A stretch of DNA of 64,000 nucleotides. Origin: Agrococcus baldri (GTDB lineage Bacteria; Actinomycetota; Actinomycetes; Actinomycetales; Microbacteriaceae). How positions within the stretch are numbered: the stretch's first letter is position 1; each line of letters starts with the position of its first letter. Shown here one piece after another: positions 7,431 to 56,841 of the stretch. The translations under genes and the position numbers were made by a program. The notes beneath the pieces are model-generated. The model ran no database searches. It saw nothing but the letters and a program-made list of their open reading frames with translations, and was not told the origin of the DNA. The stretch covers positions 310,001 through 374,000 of the forward strand of contig FOZN01000001.1 of NCBI GenBank assembly GCA_900114805.1, written 5' to 3'.

Positions 7431-7757
7431 CTACTCCCAGTCGCCGGCGTCGATGATGCTGTCGGTGCCCTCGGGCATCACGGTGTCGTCGACGCCGTTG
7501 TCGTCGGTGTCGACGCCCGCCTGAGTGCCACCATGCTCGTCGGGGATGTCGGCGGGGTCGTCGCCCTCCCACTCCTCGTCGCGGCCTTCTGAGCCTTCGG
7601 GAGCGTCGTCGCCGTCGATCTCGTCGAGCTCATCGGTCGCGAGCACTCGGTCGGAATCGGTGCTCTCGCCCATCGACTCGTCGTAGTCTTCACCATCGGC
7701 CATCTGCTCGGCCCACTGGTCGTCCTGCGGCTGGCTCTGCGGCTGTGCGTCAGTCAT
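7431..7757 (-). CDS. Very acidic hypothetical protein
   Basis: The 108-residue product is dominated by Asp, Glu, Gly and Gln and is probably disordered. It opens MTDAQPQSQPQDDQWAEQMA and ends DSIIDAGDWE. Similar short acidic proteins next to ispH occur in related actinobacteria, but I cannot name a function. The start is leaderless: TACGAT at 7764-7769 is six bases from the ATG. In the ancestor it was probably the gene directly downstream of ispH; the island now separates them. Confidence 0.65.
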   Translation of the reverse strand: MTDAQPQSQPQDDQWAEQMADGEDYDESMGESTDSDRVLATDELDEIDGDDAPEGSEGRDEEWEGDDPADIPDEHGGTQAGVDTDDNGVDDTVMPEGTDSIIDAGDWE

Positions 7758-7806: not shown

Positions 7807-8379
7807 CTCAGCGCTTGCGACTGGGGCGCAGCTCCTTCGGCAGCGAGAAGATGAGGTCTTCCTCGGCGGTGCGCACCTCTGCGACGTCGGCGTAGCCGGC
7901 GTCCTCGAGCTCCTGCAGCACCTCGCGCACGAGCCCTTCCGGCACGCTCGCACCGCTCGAGATGCCCACCGTGCGGGCACCCTCGAGCCACTCCTGCTGG
8001 ATCTCGGTCGAGAAGTCGACCCGGTAAGCGGCCTTCGCGCCGTACTCGAGCGCCACCTCGACCAAGCGCACCGAGTTGGAGGAGTTGGCGCTGCCGACGA
8101 CGATCACGACGTCGGCCTCCGGCGCCACCTTCTTGATGGCGACCTGGCGGTTCTGGGTGGCGTAGCAGATGTCGTCGCTGGGCGGATCCTGCAGGTTCGG
8201 GAAACGGATGCGGAGCCTGCGCACCGTCTCCATGGCCTCGTCGACAGAGAGCGTCGTCTGGCTCAGCCACACGAGGCGGTCGGGGTTCTTCACCTGCACC
8301 GTGTCGGCTTAGTCGGGGTTGTTCACGATCGTGACGCGATCGGGCGCGTGGCCGGCGGTGCCCTCGACCTCCTCGTGGC
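7807..8379. repeat. 573-bp direct repeat, left copy (3' part of ispH)
   Basis: This segment matches 12276-12848 at all but about twenty positions by eye, roughly 96% identity, in the same orientation. Homology begins one base outside the ispH stop codon and ends abruptly at 8379. The two copies frame the 3.9-kb island. Confidence 0.9.
7808..8379 (-). pseudogene. Truncated duplicate of the ispH 3' end
   Basis: It encodes the C-terminal 190 or so residues of IspH (from about [15 protein letters not shown] to the natural end SRKR) but lacks the first half of the enzyme, including two of the three cluster cysteines. A TAA at 8309-8311 interrupts it where the intact copy reads His-Glu. Its remaining differences from the full gene are mostly silent or conservative. 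The intact ispH lies 4 kb to the right. This is a scar of the event that brought in the island. Confidence 0.9.
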
Positions 8380-8698
8380 GCGATGGTTGCGACCCGATTG
8401 CGAGAATGCACCGTGAAGAATGATGAACCGTCCTAGGTTCGCTGCCGCTTCTCTGCGGGAGCGGCTCTCGGGTGAGCGTCGCGAAGTAGGCCGCCTAAGA
8501 CTCGTCGGAGCTGATCCGCTGCCGTCCGCACCGCATGGAGTTCATAACCGTCAAGCCTTTCGGCCTAAAGAAGGGACCGCCGCACAACAAGCGACTGTGC
8601 GGCCGTTCCGCTCGGTTCAGCGTCGATCAAGCAAGCTCTCAGGCAACGGCAACCAGGTGCTACTGTTTGGGCCACGTTCGGCTTTAAAGGAGAAGGCC
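8380..8698. other. Island left end, non-coding leader
   Basis: I see no gene here. The base composition is clearly lower in GC than the neighbours. GCCGCACA at 8579-8586 pairs with TGTGCGGC at 8596-8603 to form a small hairpin upstream of the peptide gene. A possible -10 (TACTGT) lies near 8670, about 30 bases before the ATG. Confidence 0.4.
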
Positions 8699-9055
8699 AT
8701 GGCCATAGGTTCCAGGATCGCAGCGCTCGCCTTGACAACAATTGCCGTTGCTGGCCTGACAATCGGTGCAGGTGCGACGCCCGCTCTCGCCGGCGTCGGC
8801 GGCATCGGCTGCCCCGGCGGCGCATCGGCGATCGGGACTTACTACCCAGGCGGCGGAGCCCGGACGACCGAGTTCCTTGACTGCGGCCAGTTTTCGGTTC
8901 GGATCGCATACCGGCCGTACGCGGGTAGCCCGACCTACTACACATCATGGACATACCACCCGACGAACGCCTACCGTGCAGACCCTGGTGGTCAAATTCT
9001 GACGAATCATAACGGCAGTTCCTCCGGTCGATCCTACTTCTCGCTGTCGAGTTGA
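8699..9055 (+). CDS. Small secreted peptide, candidate bacteriocin precursor
   Basis: The 118-residue precursor starts with a Sec signal peptide: MAIGSRIAAL, a hydrophobic core, then a likely cut after ATPALA near residue 31. The mature part is about 87 residues, rich in Gly, Ser, Tyr and Thr, with exactly two cysteines (residues 38 and 62) that could form a disulfide. AAAGGAG precedes the ATG by seven bases, a strong ribosome site for the first gene of the operon. The context of secreted peptide, lipoprotein, adaptor and ABC pair resembles lactococcin 972-type loci of actinobacteria, but the mature sequence lacks that family's usual motifs, so I call it only bacteriocin-like. Confidence 0.65.
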   Translation: MAIGSRIAALALTTIAVAGLTIGAGATPALAGVGGIGCPGGASAIGTYYPGGGARTTEFLDCGQFSVRIAYRPYAGSPTYYTSWTYHPTNAYRADPGGQILTNHNGSSSGRSYFSLSS

Positions 9056-9528
9056 GACTGCCTCCGAAGGGGAATAAAGCGCGCACATCGAGTCGGCAAC
9101 TTGTCCTGGGCGCAGCTCTCGCGCTCGTCTTCGGCGTGTCAGGCTGCGCAGCGGGCGACGACGAGCAATCTGCGACTACGGAGCATGAATACCGCACGGC
9201 GTTTCAGCAGTTTGCGACGTGCATGGAGGCCGCCGGTCACCCCCTTCGCGTCTCCGATGACACGGGAACCGTGATCGACTACTCACTGCCCGAAAGCGCG
9301 ATCACGTCTGGCGTAGAGTCGACGTGCTACACCCCGTTCCAGCCGATCGACATCGCCTGGCAGATCCAGAATGCGTACTCGTCGGCCGCCTCCGTGCAAG
9401 TCCGCGAGTGCCTCGAGAGCGCAGGCATCCAGCCTGCCGGCACGGTAGAGGACGAGCATGCCCAGCTCGTGGACGCGGGACTCGATGAGGCCTGCTTCGC
9501 GAACCCACCGGAGGTTGTCGATCCGTGA
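9052..9528 (+). CDS. Putative lipoprotein of the island
   Basis: The 158-residue product has a lipoprotein signal: a basic N-terminus, a hydrophobic run and the lipobox VSGC, giving an acylated Cys near residue 32. The mature part has several cysteines (CME, CYTP, CLES and CFAN contexts) suited to disulfides outside the membrane. The start is read as TTG overlapping the stop of the peptide gene (TTGA); no ATG or GTG is available before the lipobox. In bacteriocin loci such a surface lipoprotein often gives self-immunity, which is only inference here. I do not recognise the family. Confidence 0.65.
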   Translation: MRLPPKGNKARTSSRQLVLGAALALVFGVSGCAAGDDEQSATTEHEYRTAFQQFATCMEAAGHPLRVSDDTGTVIDYSLPESAITSGVESTCYTPFQPIDIAWQIQNAYSSAASVQVRECLESAGIQPAGTVEDEHAQLVDAGLDEACFANPPEVVDP

Positions 9529-10607
9529 CGCGTAGGCATCGAGACCGGTTGAACCCTCGCACCGCCGCAGCGCTGCTGATCGCGTTCTGGGTGGTTCCCG
9601 TTCTCGTCGTTGCGACTACGCTCGTTCTCGCAGACCGTTTCGAGCGAGCGGCGATCGTCGACGAGGCGGACCCGGTTGTTTCTGTCGGCAGCGTCGTCGA
9701 TGATGCATCCTCTCCGGTCACTGTCACGCTCGTTTCTGGTCAGTCGCGAGAGCTGATCTCACCGATCGGCGGCACCGTGACGTCTTCGTCGACCGGGCAC
9801 GGGGCAGACATCGAAAACGGTGCTGTCGCCCTGCAGGTCGACCGACGAGCGGTCCGGTGGTTCGTCGCGACTTCGCCACTCGTCGGCGATGTATCGCCGG
9901 GGTCGACCGGCACCGATGTCCAACTCGTCGCAGAGCACCTGGGCGTCGACGGCTCCGGAGAGCGGTACAGCGCAGCTCTTCGGCTCGCGATCGACGCACG
10001 GAACGGCGAAGGCGGCTGGCCACGCGACGGAGTGTTCCGCGCTTCGTCGGTGCTCTTCGCGAACCCGACGGAGACCTCCGTGGGCCGCTTCGAGGCCCCG
10101 GTTGGGTCAGTCGTGTCCGAAGGCGGTCGACTCGGTGAGTTCACCGCACCCGTCGTCGAAGCTCGGCTAGCACCGTTGGAGGGAGCTTCGGTCGACGCGC
10201 GCCTGTCTACCGCGAGCACTGTTCTTACAATTGCGGAAAGCACCTTCCCCATTTCAGGAACCGCAATCGCTGAGCCCGGGTTGGCTCCGCTGCTGGCGGC
10301 AATCCAGGCAGCTTCTCTGCCGTCTACGAGAACGTCGGAAACTGAAGTGCAATATCGGGAGGCCATATGGGCATTGGCCGAACCAGAAGAGTACGGCGTC
10401 GTCCCCAGCTCAGCATTGATCGCGACAGACGATGGGACGCCTTGTGTTGTCACCGTTGACGGCGACGCGACAAACGCGGTGCAAGTCGAGGGCACCACCT
10501 CGATCGGGGTCAGTGGCACGTCTGTGGTGCCGGCCTCGCTCATCGGCTCACAGGTCTTGCGCGTCGGCGCTCAGGCACCTGCAGAAACCCAGGCGACATG
10601 CGGTTGA
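9525..10607 (+). CDS. Membrane-anchored adaptor with peptidoglycan-binding-like domain
   Basis: The 360-residue protein has one N-terminal membrane helix (about residues 14-36). Its extracytoplasmic part matches the actinobacterial family of HlyD/MacA-like adaptors carrying a PG_binding_1-like segment: GSTGTDVQLVAEHLGVDG, then VFRASSVLFANP and a lipoyl-like turn VGSVVSEGGRLGEF. A C-terminal beta-rich portion includes YGVVPSSALIATDDGTPCVV. Such adaptors sit beside MacB-type ABC pairs and link them to the cell wall. GTG overlaps the previous stop (GTGA), and the next gene starts inside its end. It is probably part of the peptide export or immunity machine. Confidence 0.7.
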   Translation: MTRRHRDRLNPRTAAALLIAFWVVPVLVVATTLVLADRFERAAIVDEADPVVSVGSVVDDASSPVTVTLVSGQSRELISPIGGTVTSSSTGHGADIENGAVALQVDRRAVRWFVATSPLVGDVSPGSTGTDVQLVAEHLGVDGSGERYSAALRLAIDARNGEGGWPRDGVFRASSVLFANPTETSVGRFEAPVGSVVSEGGRLGEFTAPVVEARLAPLEGASVDARLSTASTVLTIAESTFPISGTAIAEPGLAPLLAAIQAASLPSTRTSETEVQYREAIWALAEPEEYGVVPSSALIATDDGTPCVVTVDGDATNAVQVEGTTSIGVSGTSVVPASLIGSQVLRVGAQAPAETQATCG

Positions 10608-11218
10608 TCGCACACGACGTCATTGTCGAGCTCGGATCGACACGAATCCTGGACGGTCTCAGCTTCACTTTGAAGTCCGGGACGATCACCGCCGTGCGGG
10701 GCCCGTCGGGGAGCGGCAAGACAACCTTGCTCGGCGCGATCGCGGGCTCCGTGCCGATCGAGTCGGGGACCATCGATTGGTGCGACGGCGATCAGGCCAT
10801 CCCGGTGCCAGCCGGCGCCGTCGCATGGGTACCGCAAGGTGGCAATGCGTTGGGTGCACGAACGACGCTCGACAACGTCCTCGTCGCAGCACTTTCGACG
10901 GGCATTTCTGACACCGCCGCACTGCGCAGGTCGATCCAGTGCCTTCAGCGTGTCGACATCGCACCCAGGAAGCGCAACGACGCCGACACTCTCAGCGGTG
11001 GCGAACAGCAGCGACTGTCGTTCGCACGCGCCCTTGCCCTCGACCGCCCACTTGTGCTCGCTGACGAGCCGACCGCGGGACTCGACCGAGCCAATGCTGA
11101 GAACGTCGTCGCGCTGCTCCGGTCCCTGCGCTCTCGCAGCGCGATCGTCGTGGCCACCCACGATCAGCACCTTATTGCCGCATGCGACGTCGTCGTGGAT
11201 CTCGCTCGTGGCGCGTGA
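10598..11218 (+). CDS. ABC transporter ATP-binding protein (MacB/LolD type)
   Basis: The 206-residue nucleotide-binding subunit has Walker A GPSGSGKTT (residues 35-43), Q-loop WVPQGG, signature LSGGEQQRLSFARAL, Walker B LVLADEPTAGLD and H-loop VVATHD. The order and spacing fit the short MacB/LolD-like ATPases that work with a FtsX-like permease, which is the next gene. The ATG lies inside the end of the adaptor gene and the permease start lies inside its own end, so all are co-translated. It drives export of the peptide or clears it from the membrane. Confidence 0.9.
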   Translation: MRLIAHDVIVELGSTRILDGLSFTLKSGTITAVRGPSGSGKTTLLGAIAGSVPIESGTIDWCDGDQAIPVPAGAVAWVPQGGNALGARTTLDNVLVAALSTGISDTAALRRSIQCLQRVDIAPRKRNDADTLSGGEQQRLSFARALALDRPLVLADEPTAGLDRANAENVVALLRSLRSRSAIVVATHDQHLIAACDVVVDLARGA

Positions 11219-12239
11219 CGGATTACGGCCCGCGGCGATCGTCCGTGAGGCGTTGCTCAATGCGACCGGCGGTCGCATTGGCACGGTCGCACTCTCGTGC
11301 GTCGTCATCGCACTCGGCGCGACGTTGAGCGCTGTCGCCGCCGTCGATCACGCAAGCTTCACTGCAGACCAGCAGGTACTGACCGCCGCAGGTGGCCAAG
11401 TCGCCGTCATCGCCTCCAGCACGCGGGCTGAGGTGCAGATCGATCGACGTTCATGTGAGAGGCTCGCGAATCGTTCCGAAGTCGCCCGCGCGGGCCTCAT
11501 CTGGAACTCCCATCGTACGGTCGTCGGACCGACCGGCCTAGGGGTCCCGGTTGTCGAGGTGAGCACTTCGCTCGTGCCGGAATTGTCGGCGTCGACCGCC
11601 GTGATCGGCATTGGCCTCGCTGCTCAGATGAATCCTGGCCATGTCGTCATTGATGACGTCCCGGTCGCAGCAGTCCCGGGATCGGACCAACCAGAGGGAA
11701 TCCCGCTCGACGCAGCGATCGCAGTTACTGCGCCCATAAGCGCCCGATCTGGCGAACGGTGCCTGGTCGAGTTTGAGCCCGGCGCCGAGAGTGCGTCTGC
11801 GTTGGCCGCGGCGACAGCACAGATACGAGTCTTCGGGGGGCCTGTGATCGCCACGCTCACCCATCAAGATGCGACGTCCGCAGTGCAACGCCACCTCGAC
11901 AGACCCAGTCGATGGATGTCACTCCTCGTCGGCGTCCTCGGTGGCGGCCTGCTCGCGCTCACCATCGTCGGTCGGCAGTCTGCGGTCGCAAGCTACCGAG
12001 TGAGCGGTGTCGCGCCCATCGCACTGCGTTGGATCCTCACCCTCGAGACTGCATGGTTCGCCGGCCTCATTGCCATCAGCAACACTGCGGGTCTCATCGC
12101 GCTGCAGGCTTGGCACCCCTCCTTCGCTGCGGATGCGCTGCGTGGATTGGCGGCAGCATGCATCGCACTGCTCGTCAGCGCGATGGCGACGGAATTGGTA
12201 GCGCGACGCCCGTTGCACAGGCAACTCAAGGACCGCTGA
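11208..12239 (+). CDS. ABC transporter permease (MacB/FtsX-like)
   Basis: The 343-residue protein has one helix near the N-terminus (TVALSCVVIALGATLSAVAA), a large extracytoplasmic domain of about 200 residues with paired cysteines, and three C-terminal helices (around LVGVLGGGLLALTIVG, LETAWFAGLIAISNTAG and GLAAACIALLVSAMATEL). That topology is typical of MacB/FtsX permeases. GTG at 11208 was chosen because it overlaps the ATPase stop and leaves a plausible short cytoplasmic start. The gene ends 37 bases before the converging ispH. Confidence 0.8.
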   Translation: MARDGLRPAAIVREALLNATGGRIGTVALSCVVIALGATLSAVAAVDHASFTADQQVLTAAGGQVAVIASSTRAEVQIDRRSCERLANRSEVARAGLIWNSHRTVVGPTGLGVPVVEVSTSLVPELSASTAVIGIGLAAQMNPGHVVIDDVPVAAVPGSDQPEGIPLDAAIAVTAPISARSGERCLVEFEPGAESASALAAATAQIRVFGGPVIATLTHQDATSAVQRHLDRPSRWMSLLVGVLGGGLLALTIVGRQSAVASYRVSGVAPIALRWILTLETAWFAGLIAISNTAGLIALQAWHPSFAADALRGLAAACIALLVSAMATELVARRPLHRQLKDR

Positions 12240-12275
12240 GCAACGCCGCCGACCCCGGCAGCGCCGTGAGGCGTC

Positions 12276-12848
12276 CTCAGCGCTTGCGGCTGGGGCGCAG
12301 CTCCTTGGGCAGCGAGAAGATGAGGTCTTCCTCGGCGGTGCGCACCTCGGCGACGTCGGCGTAGCCGGCGTCCTCGAGCTCCTGCAGCACCTCGCGCACG
12401 AGCCCCTCCGGCACGCTCGCACCGCTCGAGATGCCCACCGTGCGCGCACCCTCGAGCCACTCCTGCTGGATCTCGGTCGAGAAGTCGACCCGGTAAGCGG
12501 CCTTCGCGCCGTACTCGAGCGCCACCTCGACCAAGCGCACCGAGTTCGAGGAGTTGGCGCTGCCGACGACGATCACGACGTCGGCCTCCGGCGCCACCTT
12601 CTTGATGGCGACCTGGCGGTTCTGGGTGGCGTAGCAGATGTCGTCGCTGGGCGGATCCTGCAGGTTCGGGAAGCGAGCCCGGAGGCGGCGCACCGTCTCC
12701 ATGGCCTCGTCGACGGAGAGCGTCGTCTGGCTCAGCCACACGAGGCGGTCGGGGTTCTTGACCTGCACCGTGTCGGCCTCGTGGGGGTTGTTCACGATCG
12801 TGACGCGGTCGGGTGCGTGGCCGGCGGTGCCCTCGACCTCTTCGTGGC
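12276..12848. repeat. 573-bp direct repeat, right copy (inside intact ispH)
   Basis: Partner of 7807-8379, same orientation. Here the sequence continues without interruption into the 5' half of ispH, so this side keeps a working gene. Confidence 0.9.
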
Positions 12849-13305
12849 CCTCGTGGCCGACCAGCAGGATCTCGTAGTCGTCACGCGAGAAGCGCACGGC
12901 CTCGCGGTGCACCTTCGTCACGAGCGGGCAGGTCGCATCGATGGCGTCGAGGCCCCGGTCGGCCGCCGCCTGCACCACTGCCGGGCTGACACCGTGAGCG
13001 CTGAAGATGACGCGCTCGCCCTCTGGAATCTCGTCGACCTCGTTGACGAAGATGGCGCCCTGCTCGGTCAGCTGCGAGACGACGTGCTTGTTGTGCACGA
13101 TCTCCTTGCGCACGTAGATCGGGCCCTCGTACTGCTGCAGCGCCTTCTCGACGGCAAGCACCGCGCGATCGACGCCAGCGCAGTAGCCGCGCGGCGACGC
13201 GAGCAAGATGCGCTTGGCTCCATCCACCGGGTGATTCTGCAGGCGGCCCCGACGGAGTGCGGGACGGGGGTCGTCCAGAGGCACTCGTCCGTTCGTGATC
13301 GTCAC
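12277..13305 (-). CDS. ispH: 4-hydroxy-3-methylbut-2-enyl diphosphate reductase
   Basis: IspH carries out the last step of the MEP pathway, reducing HMBPP to isopentenyl and dimethylallyl diphosphate with an iron-sulfur cluster. The three cluster cysteines are in RGYCAG (Cys42), DATCPL (Cys126) and DDICYAT (Cys224), and the substrate-binding HNKHVV and [10 protein letters not shown] are present. The length of 342 is normal. It starts with GTG six bases after TAGACT (13312-13317), so the message is probably leaderless. Because its last 190 codons are duplicated at 7808, the present 3' half may come from the incoming element. It diverges from xseA. Confidence 0.96.
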
Positions 13306-28108: not shown

Positions 28109-28587
28109 GCTGGGAGCGGGACCTCGCCGCCCTCTGGGACGACGAGTCGATCGACGACCTCGAGCGGGTCGAGCGCATGGCCGTGCTCGCGCCGACGGCA
28201 CCGCATCCCGCGCTCGGGCTGTTCGAGCTCGCGAGCGCGCACGACGGCGCGGGGCTCGAGCCCCAGGCTGCGGCCCTCTACGAGGAGGCGGCGGCCGCCG
28301 GCCTCGCCGAGATCGACCCCGACCTCGATGCGCACCGGCAGATCCAGCACGCCTCCACGCTGCGCAACCTCGGCCGCCTCGAGGAGGCGCTCGCCATGCT
28401 TCGTGACGCGCCCGACCACCCGGAGGTCGGTGCCGCCCGCGACGCCTTCCTCGCGCTGACGCTGCACGACGCGGGCCGACACGACGAGGCGCTGCGCGTC
28501 ACGATCGAGGCGCTGGTGCCGACGCTGCCGATGTACCGGCGAGCGCTCACCGACTACGCCGCCATGCTCACCGAGGAGCGCGCATGA
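28105..28587 (+). CDS. Small TPR-repeat protein
   Basis: The 160-residue, all-helical protein contains TPR-like repeats of the TPR_5 type: ALGLFELASAHDGAGLEPQA, HASTLRNLGRLEEALAMLRD and LALTLHDAGRHDEALRVTIE. It has no catalytic motif, signal or membrane segment. ATGA overlaps join it to the oligopeptidase upstream and its paralogue downstream. It probably works as a scaffold or adaptor in the same process. Such small TPR proteins are common in actinobacteria but have no established role. Confidence 0.8.
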   Translation: MSWERDLAALWDDESIDDLERVERMAVLAPTAPHPALGLFELASAHDGAGLEPQAAALYEEAAAAGLAEIDPDLDAHRQIQHASTLRNLGRLEEALAMLRDAPDHPEVGAARDAFLALTLHDAGRHDEALRVTIEALVPTLPMYRRALTDYAAMLTEERA

Positions 28588-29069
28588 GCGGCGACTGGCA
28601 GGCGCGCGCCGACGCGCTCTGGGAACGGCTCGACCAGACGCCGCGGGATGCGGCGGTGGCCGAGATGCAGCAGCTGGCGGATGCGTACCCGGGCACCGAC
28701 GGGCGTGGCGCGTTCGAGCTGGCAGGCATGTACGACTCGAACGGCTTCGAGCAAGAGGCCGAGCGCGAGTATGAGCGGGCGCTCGCGCTGGGCCTCGAGC
28801 CCGAGCAGCACGCGCAGCTTGCCGTGCAGTACGGCTCGACGCTGCGCAACACCGGCCGTCTCGACGAGGCGATCGCGGTGCTGGAGGCCGCGCCGACGCA
28901 TCCGTCGACCGGCGCCGCCCCGCGCGTCTTCCTCGCGCTCGCGCTGCACACCGCCGGCCGCCACGACGAGGCGATGCGCGTCGTGGTCGAGGCGATCGAG
29001 CCGACGCTGCCGCGATACAACCGCTCGGTGCGGGCCTACGCGGTCGCGCTCACCGAGCCTGAGGACTGA
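28584..29069 (+). CDS. Small TPR-repeat protein, paralogue
   Basis: This 161-residue product is a clear paralogue of the preceding gene: both share STLRN(L/T)GRL(E/D)EA, a P-x-HP turn, LAL(T/A)LH(D/T)AGRHDEA and an IEALVPTLP/IEPTLP-type end. Tandem duplication is the likely origin. It lies last in the operon and overlaps its neighbour by four bases. The function is unknown; it may bind the same partner. Confidence 0.8.
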   Translation: MSGDWQARADALWERLDQTPRDAAVAEMQQLADAYPGTDGRGAFELAGMYDSNGFEQEAEREYERALALGLEPEQHAQLAVQYGSTLRNTGRLDEAIAVLEAAPTHPSTGAAPRVFLALALHTAGRHDEAMRVVVEAIEPTLPRYNRSVRAYAVALTEPED

Positions 29070-52976: not shown

Positions 52977-53663
52977 TCAGCCCAGCGGGGCGCCGGCGCG
53001 GTAGCCGACCCCGCGCACGGTCGTCACGACCACGGGGTTGTCGACGTCGCGCTCGACCTTGGAGCGCAGCCGCTGCACGTGCACGTTCACCAGCCGCGTG
53101 TCGGCCTTGTAGTGGTAGCCCCAGACCTGCTCGAGCAGCATCTCGCGCGTGAACACCTGGCTGGGCTTGGAGGCGAGCGTGACGAGCAGCTCGAACTCCA
53201 GCGGCGTCAGCGCGATGGTCTCGCCTGCGCGGCTCACCCGGTGCCCCTCGACGTCGATCTCGAGGTCGGCCGCCTTCAGGGTGCCGGTGTCGGCGGCGCG
53301 CTGCGGGCGCAGCCGGGTGCGCACGCGGGCGACCAGCTCCTTCGGGTTGAAGGGCTTGACGACGTAGTCGTCCGCGCCGGACTCCAGGCCGAGCACGATG
53401 TCGGTCGGGTCGCCCTTCGCGGTCAGCATGATGATGGGCACGCCCGACTCGGCGCGGATCTCGGTGCAGATCTGGATGCCGTCCTTGCCCGGCAGCATCA
53501 GATCGAGCAGCACCAGATCGGGACGCACCTCGTGGAACCGGTCGAGCGCATCCGACCCGTCGGCGCAGTACTCGAGCGCGTAGCCCTCGCCCGCGAGCAC
53601 GATGCCGATCATCTCGGCGAGCGCGGGATCGTCGTCGACGACGAGGATCGTCTGCTCTGACAT
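52977..53663 (-). CDS. mtrA: Response regulator MtrA
   Basis: The 228-residue OmpR-type regulator has a receiver domain (ILVVDDDPALAEMI, phospho-Asp in LVLLDLMLPGKDG, Lys in VVKPFNPKELVAR) and a winged-helix domain (LTPLEFELLVTLASKPSQVF, then VWGYHYKADTRLVNVHVQRL). GGGAG precedes the ATG by seven bases. In actinobacteria MtrA is usually essential and regulates cell-wall and replication genes. It is the first gene of its operon; TACAGT on the minus strand near 53727 is a possible -10. Confidence 0.97.
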   Translation of the reverse strand: MSEQTILVVDDDPALAEMIGIVLAGEGYALEYCADGSDALDRFHEVRPDLVLLDLMLPGKDGIQICTEIRAESGVPIIMLTAKGDPTDIVLGLESGADDYVVKPFNPKELVARVRTRLRPQRAADTGTLKAADLEIDVEGHRVSRAGETIALTPLEFELLVTLASKPSQVFTREMLLEQVWGYHYKADTRLVNVHVQRLRSKVERDVDNPVVVTTVRGVGYRAGAPLG

Positions 53664-53863
53664 GGGCGCTCCCTTCGTGCTGCTCCGCGATTTCGCTGCA
53701 CCGCTCCGGCGCGGCTCCCGCCACTGTATCCGAGTCGCCTGGGGCCTAAGCAGTCCCGATCGCGAGGCTGCGATTTGATAGAAGTAAGTGTGACGTGGCT
53801 TTGGGCGGCGCAATTGGTTCGATACTCATGCCGAAGATCTACGCGTTCGGCTAGCCTCCGACT
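53664..53863. other. Gap between mtrA and the DUF4062-TPR gene
   Basis: No gene seen. It carries the mtrA promoter (possible -10 near 53727, minus) and, at 53852-53857, TAGCCT six bases before the next ATG. GC drops towards the right end, marking the edge of the cassette. Confidence 0.4.
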
Positions 53864-55444
53864 ATGCCGATCGAGCTCCAAGGACGTCAGGTCTTCATCG
53901 CATCACCTTCAGGGCTCGACCCCGAACGGGACGCCGTGCGCCAAGCGCTCCGCATATTCAACCGCTCGGACGCCATGCGTGAAGGTGTGATCTTCATCGA
54001 CAGAGGGTGGGAAGAAACGCCCCCGGGAGTTGGCCGCGCCCAGACCCTGATCAATCGATTGATCGAGCCTTGCGACTTCATGTTGGTAGTGCTGGGAGAA
54101 AGGTGGGGGACGCCACCGGGCGAGTCGAAGTTTAGCTCCGGCACAGAAGAGGAGTTCTATTACGCGTTAGATCTGCTTGCGGCAGTAAACAGCGACATGC
54201 GTGACATCCACGTCTATTTTCGAACTATTGCCCCTGAACTACTTCGTGATCCAGGCGATGAACTAAAGAAGGTCCTGGCATTCAAACAGCGGCTGCAGGA
54301 GAGTCAGAAGATTCTTTACTCGACCTTCGACACTGATGAGAACCTTGCGCTCAGGGTGCATCGCAGCCTGCGTGAATGGTCTGGCACCCTGAGCGCAAGG
54401 TCACCCATGGTGATCGACATGCCGGGATCATTCGCCGACTTCGAACGCGCGTCGGTGGATCCCCTCGAGGCGGCTCTCGAGGCCGAGACGCAGGGCGCCA
54501 CGGTTCGAGCAGAAATCCTCTTCGCCCAGGCCGCCGAGGATGGTGACCCTGCGGCGCTCGTGGCGTCCGCCCGCTTCGCGCGGCGTAGGGGGTTGCTAGA
54601 AGATGCGACAGAACAGAACAAGCATGCAGTCGCAGCGCTGTCGGCCCGGCGCGACCGAAGCTCTGACGAAGACTCGGCGTTGGTGAGCGCCATGGCTAAC
54701 ATTGGCGTGATTGCGCGATCCCAAGGAGACATCGAGCGGTCCATCGCAGCCCTGGAGGAGGCGATCCGTCTAGCGGAGTCGTCCCCGCATGACGTGACGG
54801 AGCAGCTCACCTACGCACTCGACAATCTCGGCCATTCGCTCGCACACATCTCTCATCTCGACGAAGCGCGCGCCGCTTACGAACGAGCCGGCGACGCTCG
54901 ACGAATCGCGGGCGACCCACGCCATGCACTGATGACTTCACTGCACTTGGGCTGGCTTGCCCTCAAGAACTCACAGCCGGAGATCGCTGCGGCGAACTTC
55001 GAGTCGGCGGCCGCGGAGCTCGAGGACGATCCTGTCGAGATGGCACGCTGCCTGAGCGGGTGGGGAGACGCGCTGGTTCAAGTCGGGCGTGCCGACGAAG
55101 CGGTGGAGAAGCTTGATCGATCTCTCGAGATCAATAAGGAGCTCGGCAACTCCAACGGGATCAGCATTGCGAGCGGCTTGTTAGCGCGTGCTTACGCCAA
55201 CTTGGGGGACGGAGACGCAGAGCAAGCAGCAATCGAGGAGACGATCCGCCAAAGCGAGCGGTCGGGCAGCGCTATAGGCCGCGCCACTGGCCTGCGTCTG
55301 CAAGCTGAGAGGTTCGCACGCCTCGGAGACCAGGTCAGCGCGTTGCGGAGCTTTGAGACCGCCGAGGAAGTGGCAAATGCCAGCGGCAACGCGCCCCTCG
55401 CCTCGGCCATCGCCAACAGTCGTAGGTCAAGCCTCGGAACTTGA
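53864..55444 (+). CDS. DUF4062-like domain protein with TPR repeats
   Basis: The 526-residue protein starts with a DUF4062-like alpha/beta domain: VFIASPSGLDPERDAVR (residues 10-26), then INRLIEPCDFMLVVLGERWG and GTEEEFYYAL. After about residue 215 it becomes all-helical, with TPR units such as LVSAMANIGVIARSQGDIER and LDNLGHSLAHISHLDEARAA. DUF4062 resembles TIR folds and occurs in NLR-like and other defence proteins with repeat sensors. Base use is clearly lower in GC than its neighbours. Leaderless start: TAGCCT, six bases, ATG. It ends 18 bases inside the convergent phosphatase gene. Confidence 0.75.
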   Translation: MPIELQGRQVFIASPSGLDPERDAVRQALRIFNRSDAMREGVIFIDRGWEETPPGVGRAQTLINRLIEPCDFMLVVLGERWGTPPGESKFSSGTEEEFYYALDLLAAVNSDMRDIHVYFRTIAPELLRDPGDELKKVLAFKQRLQESQKILYSTFDTDENLALRVHRSLREWSGTLSARSPMVIDMPGSFADFERASVDPLEAALEAETQGATVRAEILFAQAAEDGDPAALVASARFARRRGLLEDATEQNKHAVAALSARRDRSSDEDSALVSAMANIGVIARSQGDIERSIAALEEAIRLAESSPHDVTEQLTYALDNLGHSLAHISHLDEARAAYERAGDARRIAGDPRHALMTSLHLGWLALKNSQPEIAAANFESAAAELEDDPVEMARCLSGWGDALVQVGRADEAVEKLDRSLEINKELGNSNGISIASGLLARAYANLGDGDAEQAAIEETIRQSERSGSAIGRATGLRLQAERFARLGDQVSALRSFETAEEVANASGNAPLASAIANSRRSSLGT

Positions 55445-56032
55445 CTGGAACCACTCTTTCGATGGCCATCTGAAGCAGGTTAATCTCCCCCGTGGGAGGG
55501 TCCCGCAGCCAGTATCGATAAGTGCGTAGTTGGCACCCAATGTAGGCACCAGGCCCACCCTGGCCGAGTGACCTGCCACCAGAAACGAGCGTCCAAGGGG
55601 CACAGTGCGCGCATCGTGGACGGCAAGAACGCTACCGTTGGTCCAACTAGGCAGCGTTGCTGACAGGAAAGCTCGATGCGTCGAGGGGACAGCGCGCCGG
55701 AAGTGCGCAACGACATCGTGCGACGCTCCCTCAATGTACGAAGAAATCGTCGGCGCGCCTCCCATACGCAGAAACTTGTCTATCGAATCGTCCTCCGACA
55801 TTGCCCGCAGCATTGCCTCGTCGTGATTTCCCCGGAGGAACACCGTCTCGGCCTGCCGGCCGGCCGCTAGGGCGATGAGAGTGTCTATGACACGGCTCGA
55901 GTCCGGCCCCCGATCAACATAGTCGCCGAGGAACACGAGCGGGACGGGAATGTTGGCTAGACGGGTCAGCATCCCCTGCAGGACATCCACTCGGCCGTGA
56001 ATGTCGCCGACGAAGGCAGCTTCGTCGGTCAC
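55427..56032 (-). CDS. PPP-type metallophosphatase
   Basis: The 201-residue phosphoesterase has all core PPP motifs: GDIHG (residues 9-13), GDYVDRG (36-42) and GNHD (68-71), with a later VAGHSARVG in place of the usual GHT. These bind two metal ions and remove phosphate from proteins or dinucleotides such as Ap4A; the substrate here is unknown. It starts with GTG inside the stop of the nucleotidyltransferase gene (GTGA), so the two are co-translated. A phosphatase paired with a nucleotidyltransferase suggests opposing or sequential modification. Confidence 0.82.
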   Translation of the reverse strand: MTDEAAFVGDIHGRVDVLQGMLTRLANIPVPLVFLGDYVDRGPDSSRVIDTLIALAAGRQAETVFLRGNHDEAMLRAMSEDDSIDKFLRMGGAPTISSYIEGASHDVVAHFRRAVPSTHRAFLSATLPSWTNGSVLAVHDARTVPLGRSFLVAGHSARVGLVPTLGANYALIDTGCGTLPRGRLTCFRWPSKEWFQSSSEA

Positions 56033-56841
56033 AGAATCACCCGTGGAATCTCGGTATATGGCCCATCCGAGTCTGTTGCAAGGAGAAGAATGGCTGCATC
56101 TGCCAACTCCGGACGATGTACAGACTCACCGACGATCAGATCCGCGATGGACTGGTATCCCAGGGACTCCGGTTCAAGAATCTCGCGGATGCGCCTGTCG
56201 AGCTCCGATAACACGGACAGAGTCGGAGGGCCCTGGACCGCCGAATGCGATGAAAGCATCGCGGCGAGAGCCGGATCGGCATCTCGCACGGCTAGCTCGG
56301 CGACTGAAAAGCATGGAGCGCCCGCTTCTATAGCCTGCATGTACTTGGCCGTACGGAGCACATAACGGGCGTGACGCACGAATGCGGGCAGCCGTGCTAG
56401 CACTTGGTCGTCTGGCAAGGTGAGCAGTCCTGCGAGCGAGCGCAGTCGAGATCGAAGTCGAGGCAAATCGACGGTATGGAAACCGCTGATAAGCGATCTC
56501 ACGCGCCCCGCGTCGTGCAGGATCACGCCGTCGCGCGCCAGGTGCATGCCAAAGATGGTTCCGGCCGCGGACTCAAGCTGAGAAAAGTCGTACGTCGACA
56601 CATTGACCCTGCCGCAGGCAACTGTCGCGGCGTGCCGATTGGCGACCACGAGCAAATCGATATCCGAGGATTCGGAAGCGTCTCCGCGAGCTTGACTGCC
56701 GTACAGGATCACGCCCAAGGCATCCGAAGGCAACGCCTGAGCGATTTCGCTAATGACCTTCGGGTCGACAGCGCGCGCGCTCAAAAGCTTCGCAACGCGG
56801 CGTGCGTCAAGGTTCGTCGCGTTCGGCAGCGAAGCAATCAC
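56029..56841 (-). CDS. MNT-type nucleotidyltransferase
   Basis: The 270-residue protein has a minimal nucleotidyltransferase core at residues about 42-66: ILYGSQARGDASESSDIDLL, giving Gly48-Ser49 and Asp60-x-Asp62, the metal-binding signature. The C-terminal 150 residues are helical (RHARYVLRTAKYMQAIEAG) and could be a HEPN-like or substrate domain. MNT enzymes act as antitoxins, AMP-transferring effectors or drug-modifying enzymes. GTG at 56841 is chosen because TACCTT (56848-56853, minus strand) lies six bases upstream, a leaderless start. First gene of a two-gene operon with the phosphatase. Confidence 0.78.
   Translation of the reverse strand: MIASLPNATNLDARRVAKLLSARAVDPKVISEIAQALPSDALGVILYGSQARGDASESSDIDLLVVANRHAATVACGRVNVSTYDFSQLESAAGTIFGMHLARDGVILHDAGRVRSLISGFHTVDLPRLRSRLRSLAGLLTLPDDQVLARLPAFVRHARYVLRTAKYMQAIEAGAPCFSVAELAVRDADPALAAMLSSHSAVQGPPTLSVLSELDRRIREILEPESLGYQSIADLIVGESVHRPELADAAILLLATDSDGPYTEIPRVIL

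Follow-up and report, generated by a model that had tools for sequence, protein, structure and literature searches.

In a 64,000-nucleotide stretch of the Agrococcus baldri genome (contig FOZN01000001.1, positions 310,001 to 374,000; hereafter the window), a five-gene operon of predicted lactococcin-972 type lies between two direct copies of the 3′ end of ispH, the gene for 4-hydroxy-3-methylbut-2-enyl diphosphate reductase. Sequence comparisons suggest, with a probability that we put at about one half, that this operon entered by one-sided homologous capture and not through an integrase. The same anatomy recurs at the ends of other genes in three other genera, which strengthens the idea of a general route.

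The two ispH copies differ in extent. The complete gene (12277–13305, minus strand; an open reading frame of 342 codons, Pfam LYTB E = 1.7e-94) contains the near repeat copy, which consists of its 3′ end plus one base (12276–12848, minus strand). The far copy (7807–8379, minus strand) is a truncated allele that runs from codon 153 to the stop codon, lacking a start and codons 1–152 and bearing one in-frame stop at codon 176. Aligned with each other, the copies span 573 bases with no gaps and 21 differences (96.3% identity), comprising 572 ispH bases and one base past the stop codon. Self-comparison of the region returned this single long direct repeat family, and its score of 939 bits, against 39 bits for the best of 395 mismatched flank pairs, shows that the match is not due to chance. 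The alignment confirms what a first-pass annotation, made from the sequence alone, had described: five genes between two direct 573-bp copies of the ispH 3′ end, with the near copy completing ispH. The insert between them (8380–12275, 3,896 bp) has a G+C content of 64.6% compared with 70.7% for the window, and third-codon-position G+C (GC3) is 0.67–0.76 in the five operon genes but 0.92 in ispH and fba, so that the insert is low in G+C in a relative sense. On the 3′ side of the far copy stand a gene for an acidic protein (7431–7757, minus strand), which serves as a marker of the empty site, and then fba, the same genes that follow ispH in relatives.

Substitution patterns suggest that neither ispH end is a simple relic. 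Full gene and fragment differ at 17 codons, 14 of them synonymously; the non-synonymous differences are His175 in the full gene versus Asp in the fragment, the stop at codon 176 of the fragment, and Ala210 (full) versus Ile (fragment). Random change would give a synonymous share of 25–42%, depending on the mutation model, and the excess is significant (P = 3e-6; 9e-7 to 9e-4 across twelve mutation models). Among changes polarised to the fragment, 8/9 are synonymous, one of the eight lying inside the stop codon (P = 9e-5 to 6e-3). Because 14/17 differing codons are synonymous, both ends appear to have diverged in working genes, and the fragment seems to have evolved inside a working gene until recently. 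The far copy had been called a decayed fragment; a fragment it is, while "decayed" is too strong. Nor does it look like a recent local duplication, since the copies diverged under purifying selection. The distribution of derived bases between the two copies hints at a reciprocal crossover point inside ispH, but this point was picked post hoc (Fisher's exact test, 0.06) and is not relied on. At codon 175 of the working gene (12781–12783), which encodes His, the fragment and 20/20 aligned relatives carry the base that gives Asp.

Separate trees of the gene halves point to the source of these ends. The full and fragment ends are sisters (support 97/99), with branch lengths of 0.013 and 0.030, respectively; grouping either with G014, the nearest relative by ispH, is rejected (approximately unbiased test, p < 0.001). 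The 5′ half of ispH does group with G014 (97/88). As the two ends group together and the G014 grouping is rejected, both probably belong to the lineage of the host or to one very close to it. The earlier proposal that a foreign element had brought a replacement ispH end is supported as regards the cargo, which is foreign to the sampled genus (the permease is found in 0/23 other Agrococcus genomes at E ≤ 0.001), but finds no support as regards a replacement end brought as an adaptation.

Comparison with relatives points to an insertion at this site. An ispH match is present in 21 of 24 Agrococcus genomes, twice in the 2.9-Mb host genome (G000) only and once in each of the 20 others (out of 23). 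The site is empty in 18 of these 20, where the acidic-protein gene begins 29–232 bp behind ispH. The other two hold different DNA: 525 bp with a small open reading frame, read from the sequence, in G004, and 1,761 bp with an extracytoplasmic function (ECF) sigma factor gene and a second protein gene in G014 (L024:4894–6499). In the wider family, the ispH end is present in 370/398 genomes, and by list count four have two matches (G000, G116, G230 and G310), the last three known from the match list alone and the two of G116 lying on separate contigs. One genome of the same genus (G013, one contig, 99% complete) has no ispH match at the thresholds used, and the same is true of 28/398 family genomes.

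Gene-end brackets also surround related operons elsewhere. A first self-comparison of 19 loci of the five-gene type revealed repeats lying tightly around two operons (G245 and G231), and we then surveyed 60 loci, 24 of five-gene type (assigned by an adaptor match, the other genes not all being scored; the window is included) and 36 others. One search for Lactococcin_972 peptides contributed 36 of its 37 matches (without G236), and a second gave 20 loci from 24 matches (without G555, G439 and G712; the second G760 match lies inside L208); four loci are shortened by contig ends (L195, L209, L213 and L215). Flank-to-flank repeats above 70 bits occur at 6/24 five-gene-type loci and 1/36 others, and duplicated gene 3′ ends at 5/24 (four genera, four genes) and 0/36, respectively. 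Control comparisons exceeded 70 bits in 1/198 windows and in 0/60 of those displaced within the same loci. When the window is excluded and the genus with deiminase brackets enters only once, the difference persists (3/22 versus 1/198, P = 0.003; versus 0/60, P = 0.017). Besides ispH, the duplicated ends are 163 bp from the 3′ end of a zinc-protease-like gene (PF05618; G245), 71 bp across the pcrA/uvrD 3′ end reaching 32 bp past the stop (G231), and the 49-bp 3′ end of a PF04371 deiminase gene in two species of one genus (G149 and G201). With ispH and with the zinc-protease-like gene, the repeat reaches one base beyond the stop codon; with the deiminase it finishes five bases short of the stop codon's end.

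Several other repeats were set aside. A 99-bp repeat in G192 (L194), the sixth above 70 bits among the five-gene-type loci, was read as self-complementary and intergenic and hence left out of the gene ends; one at L223 scored 46 bits and was excluded from the count; one at L208, the single case above 70 bits among the other loci, stands in front of two adjoining Lactococcin_972 peptide copies; and the duplication at L236 is internal to the operon. The association of duplicated gene ends with operons of this type is new, and the mechanism that we infer for it is set out below. Our literature search found no paper on gene-end duplication around bacteriocin clusters or on an ispH island.

Sites in relatives of the other carriers give a similar picture. 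At the zinc protease site, three of seven relatives (G399, G285 and G146) have no operon, and the DNA that trails the G245 fragment (from 143–173 bp on) sits 2–392 bp behind their gene; the other four are non-syntenic. At the deiminase site, 5/6 relatives have no operon, and DNA found 0.85–1.2 kb behind the carrier's fragment starts directly, or at most 181 bp, behind their gene. For pcrA, one relative of seven is syntenic (G182), with two genes, presumably sucC and sucD, at the position that the operon occupies in G231.

The deiminase brackets further record a transfer. G149 and G201 belong to different species, and their flanks are 83–96% identical per 250 bp; between these lies a shared unit of 5,344 bp with six differences (99.9% identity), with one boundary ~90 bp downstream of the deiminase stop and the other 67 bp beyond the 49-bp copy of the gene end. 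Beyond it, identity is ~98% over the next 0.8 kb and then ~92%. The 49-bp copy is identical in the two genomes, while their full deiminase genes differ at four positions in those 49 bases. The bracketed unit has evidently passed between species together with its gene-end copy, the host deiminase gene being native. It also carries a ThsB-like TIR gene and a PDC-M50A-like gene (L238:7651–8684 in G201, with a counterpart in L188 of G149). An att-like boundary coinciding with the deiminase stop was considered and withdrawn, since the identity break lies ~90 bp further on. This position of the break, past a native gene, lends no support to the earlier view that the element supplies the replacement end.

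One-sided homologous capture is a route that these cases fit. A near relative would carry the operon directly behind its own ispH; a piece of that donor DNA, circular or linear, would recombine with the host through ispH on one side, and on the other side an illegitimate joint, placed at codon 153 of ispH, would complete the insertion. Homology is indeed found on one side only, where ispH is shared, and the other joint lies within ispH at that codon. The product would read complete ispH, operon, leftover ispH 3′ end and native downstream gene, as the crossover regenerates ispH; the essential gene would stay whole and no integrase would be needed. The repeats could later allow RecA to remove the operon again. 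For the other brackets, DNA with the operon behind a gene would likewise recombine through that gene, its far end being joined inside the recipient's copy. In Escherichia coli, the 14 clones sequenced after single crossovers with partly deleted circles had target-gene duplications of 109–950 bp (excerpts of PMC3240628), and a leftover-gene model through homology-facilitated illegitimate recombination has been proposed for type VI effector modules (excerpts of PMC5361080). A bolder generalization, which we regard as doubtful, is that five-gene operons may be integrase-free mobile units that sit behind household genes, each keeping a spare tail of the host gene, and that could loop out and re-dock by homologous recombination in a related strain or species without harm; the unit shared by G149 and G201 would then be such a move caught fresh.

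Several observations weigh against one-sided capture. Divergence between the ispH copies is uneven, 7–8% over the first 200 bp versus ~1.6% after, a pattern not expected from a simple crossover. The tests of synonymous excess assume that codon changes are independent, and two bracketed loci were already known when the bracket comparison was carried out; 19/24 five-gene-type loci have no gene-end bracket. G231 (L228:5506–9538) lacks the two genes that lie between pcrA and a DUF6350 gene in G182, so that insertion there came with loss. The cargo of G014, at the same ispH site, has no ispH copy behind it. No donor strain or circle was found, plasmid and viral searches giving no protein match.

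The main rival holds that the insert is what remains of a site-specific element, or is mobilised in trans as one; such an element would integrate at the 3′ ends of genes and bring a spare gene end, its integrase being lost or encoded elsewhere. Models for this are e14 and phage 21 in icd, or cis-mobilisable elements. Consistent with this, the ispH, zinc-protease-like and deiminase repeats end near the stop codon, and the near-identical 5.3-kb unit of G149 and G201 includes its gene-end copy while the flanks diverge. However, a Pfam scan confined to the open reading frames of the cargo and of seven neighbours found no integrase or recombinase family, in agreement with the earlier statement that no integrase is present, and the gaps of 75–355 bp beside the operon in the G231 and G245 brackets leave no room for one. 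Repeats of 49, 71, 163 and 573 bp, at four different genes, are very variable for a recombination core, and both the pcrA repeat and the G149/G201 identity break extend past the gene. Furthermore, the small number of genomes with two ispH-end matches (4/370, the three besides the host being taken from the list only) would argue against a dedicated ispH-targeting element. We consider a site-specific element possible but unlikely.

What the cargo does is a second question. The operon, all on the plus strand, begins with a gene for a 118-residue secreted peptide with two Cys (8699–9055) in the bacteriocin slot, followed by a lipoprotein with lipobox Cys32 and four further Cys (9052–9528), a membrane-anchored adaptor (9525–10607) that has no Pfam match of its own but relatives with PG_binding_1, an ATP-binding cassette (ABC) transporter ATPase (10598–11218) and an ABC permease of 343 residues (11208–12239) with one N-terminal and at least two C-terminal hydrophobic stretches. 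Start and stop codons of the five genes overlap, and the expected motifs and hydrophobic stretches are found. Pfam gives a confident name for the ATPase only; among NCBIfam models its second-best match is TIGR03608, of the lactococcin 972 group, at 122.7 bits, below the cut-off of 254.85. Equal gene order occurs in three genomes of other genera (G181, G367 and G373), with related two-Cys peptides in G181 and G367. Profile hidden Markov models built from operons of the G181/G367/G373 type and run on loci around true PF09683 peptides gave same-strand matches at similar spacing for the lipoprotein (9/16), adaptor (9/16), ATPase (12/16) and permease (8/16), compared with 0, 0, 4 and 0 in 22 control loci (455 kb). 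Since homologous partner genes follow true Lactococcin_972 peptides, the insert is, by its predicted partner genes, a lactococcin-972-type operon whose peptide is divergent and outside PF09683, and it probably serves a putative bacteria-killing peptide.

The peptide itself has no Pfam match, and there is no PF09683 match anywhere in the host genome. Alignment of its profile with Lactococcin_972 (hhalign) covers the signal peptide alone, no convincing relative was found in the PDB (best E 0.12), and an AlphaFold model was unusable (predicted local distance difference test score, pLDDT, 40). The permease is matched in 9/398 family genomes, the host included, five of them weakly. Among 72,556 plasmid records there is no protein match for the permease, peptide or adaptor, and matches in a plasmid DNA search are limited to an insertion sequence end (below) and a short stretch of the ATPase gene; viral contigs hold no confirmed relative of the permease. 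Twelve loci of the window's operon type contain no tRNA gene. In a literature search whose scope left out most subscription papers, we found no description of the five-gene arrangement, excerpts of PMC12823222 included. Two loci show variation within the operon: G181 has two related two-Cys peptide genes, one on each side of it (L035:6338–6706 and 10101–10520), and G125 a 689-bp direct repeat pair, 90% identical, over the peptide and lipoprotein part (L236:7707–8395 and 9232–9919). The five genes could instead form an envelope export or sensing module that shares its transporter with Lactococcin_972 loci and is not a bacteriocin system, as the peptide's lack of a Pfam match, and of a profile match beyond the signal peptide, might suggest. 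We think this improbable, because true PF09683 peptides are followed by homologous genes in equal order and with similar spacing.

Near the fragment junction lies a trace of a different kind of mobile DNA, which the first-pass annotation had missed; apart from this and from the word "decayed", its observations stood, and its interpretation did in part. From 8424 to ~8514 (minus strand), and perhaps further rightward, extends the right-end remnant of an insertion sequence (IS) of the IS3 family, made up of the terminal repeat and the last transposase codons; in translation it reads as a transposase C-terminus followed by a stop. It matches G459 at 85% over 92 bp and has matches in several genera, and in two Frondihabitans plasmids an IS3 family transposase is annotated under the match. 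When 8380–8622 was searched in 149 genomes, matches outside the host genome started at 8422–8424 or further in, with one plasmid match from 8420; 44 bp (8380–8423) thus separate the fragment from the IS end. No further part of the IS was found at the locus. An IS3-family element might have moved the operon, with the ispH duplication arising from a one-ended or replicative event: the IS end is 44 bp from the fragment junction, and in Lactococcus IS981 and IS1216 moved an Lcn972 plasmid, for which IS-flanked integration into the chromosome is reported (excerpts of PMC4055356). But the window has an end on one side only, not touching the junction, which gives no composite transposon; a pattern search allowing two mismatches found no second copy in the host genome, and the end is absent from 23 other five-gene-type loci (E ≤ 1e-4). 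IS movement is more doubtful still. Least probable is a plain long target duplication, in which a local duplication of host ispH accompanied entry of the operon and the extra copy decayed afterwards: the anatomy is that of the proposed "insertion with long target duplication" of restriction-modification genes (as cited in excerpts of PMC3031569), but a decaying copy should gain mostly amino-acid changes, not the predominantly synonymous changes polarised to the fragment.

These results bear on the way in which small competition operons could spread with neither integrases nor transposases. If duplicated gene tails mark a capture route, they offer a simple sequence mark by which recently acquired operons could be recognised; such a route would predict that operons dock behind the same gene and excise through the repeats, and that one genome holds two alleles of the gene end. 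The window also adds a divergent peptide family and a lipoprotein–adaptor–transporter set to the lactococcin-972-type loci of Actinobacteria. Elsewhere in the window, a second stretch of low G+C lies at 53500–56750 (0.57–0.64 versus a window mean of 0.71), and 28345–29012 holds a 188-bp direct repeat pair with 79% identity.

Known systems share parts of this anatomy. The e14 element and phage 21 integrate at the 3′ end of a protein gene, icd, leaving the gene intact and, beyond the element, another 3′ end whose differences are mostly synonymous; the window differs in that no integrase was found, the genes are different and repeat length is variable. Insertion with long target duplication is said to have been described for restriction-modification genes by Nobusato in 2000 and Furuta in 2010. 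Like those insertions (excerpts of PMC3031569), the window has a selfish-type unit between long direct repeats of variable length, with 573-bp repeats flanking the insert and 20/20 relatives that have a single ispH match, 18 of them with an empty site. Unlike them, its cargo is of bacteriocin type, its repeats are gene 3′ ends, and in place of one duplicated target there appear to be two ispH alleles, each of which diverged while functional. Single crossover and homology-facilitated illegitimate recombination (excerpts of PMC3240628 and PMC5361080) share with it one-sided homology, partial gene duplications and gene leftovers beside competition genes, whereas in the window the case is read from natural scars, and the donor and the illegitimate joint are inferred. 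With respect to the lactococcin 972 operon of pBL1 (excerpts of PMC4055356), the window differs by a peptide outside PF09683, an added lipoprotein and separate adaptor, and a 343-residue permease. In both, a small secreted peptide gene comes first, followed in pBL1 by genes thought to encode an immunity ABC transporter; the pBL1 cluster supports its own retention and so stabilises its carrier DNA, and the Lcn972 plasmid was seen to have entered the chromosome, integrated between IS copies.

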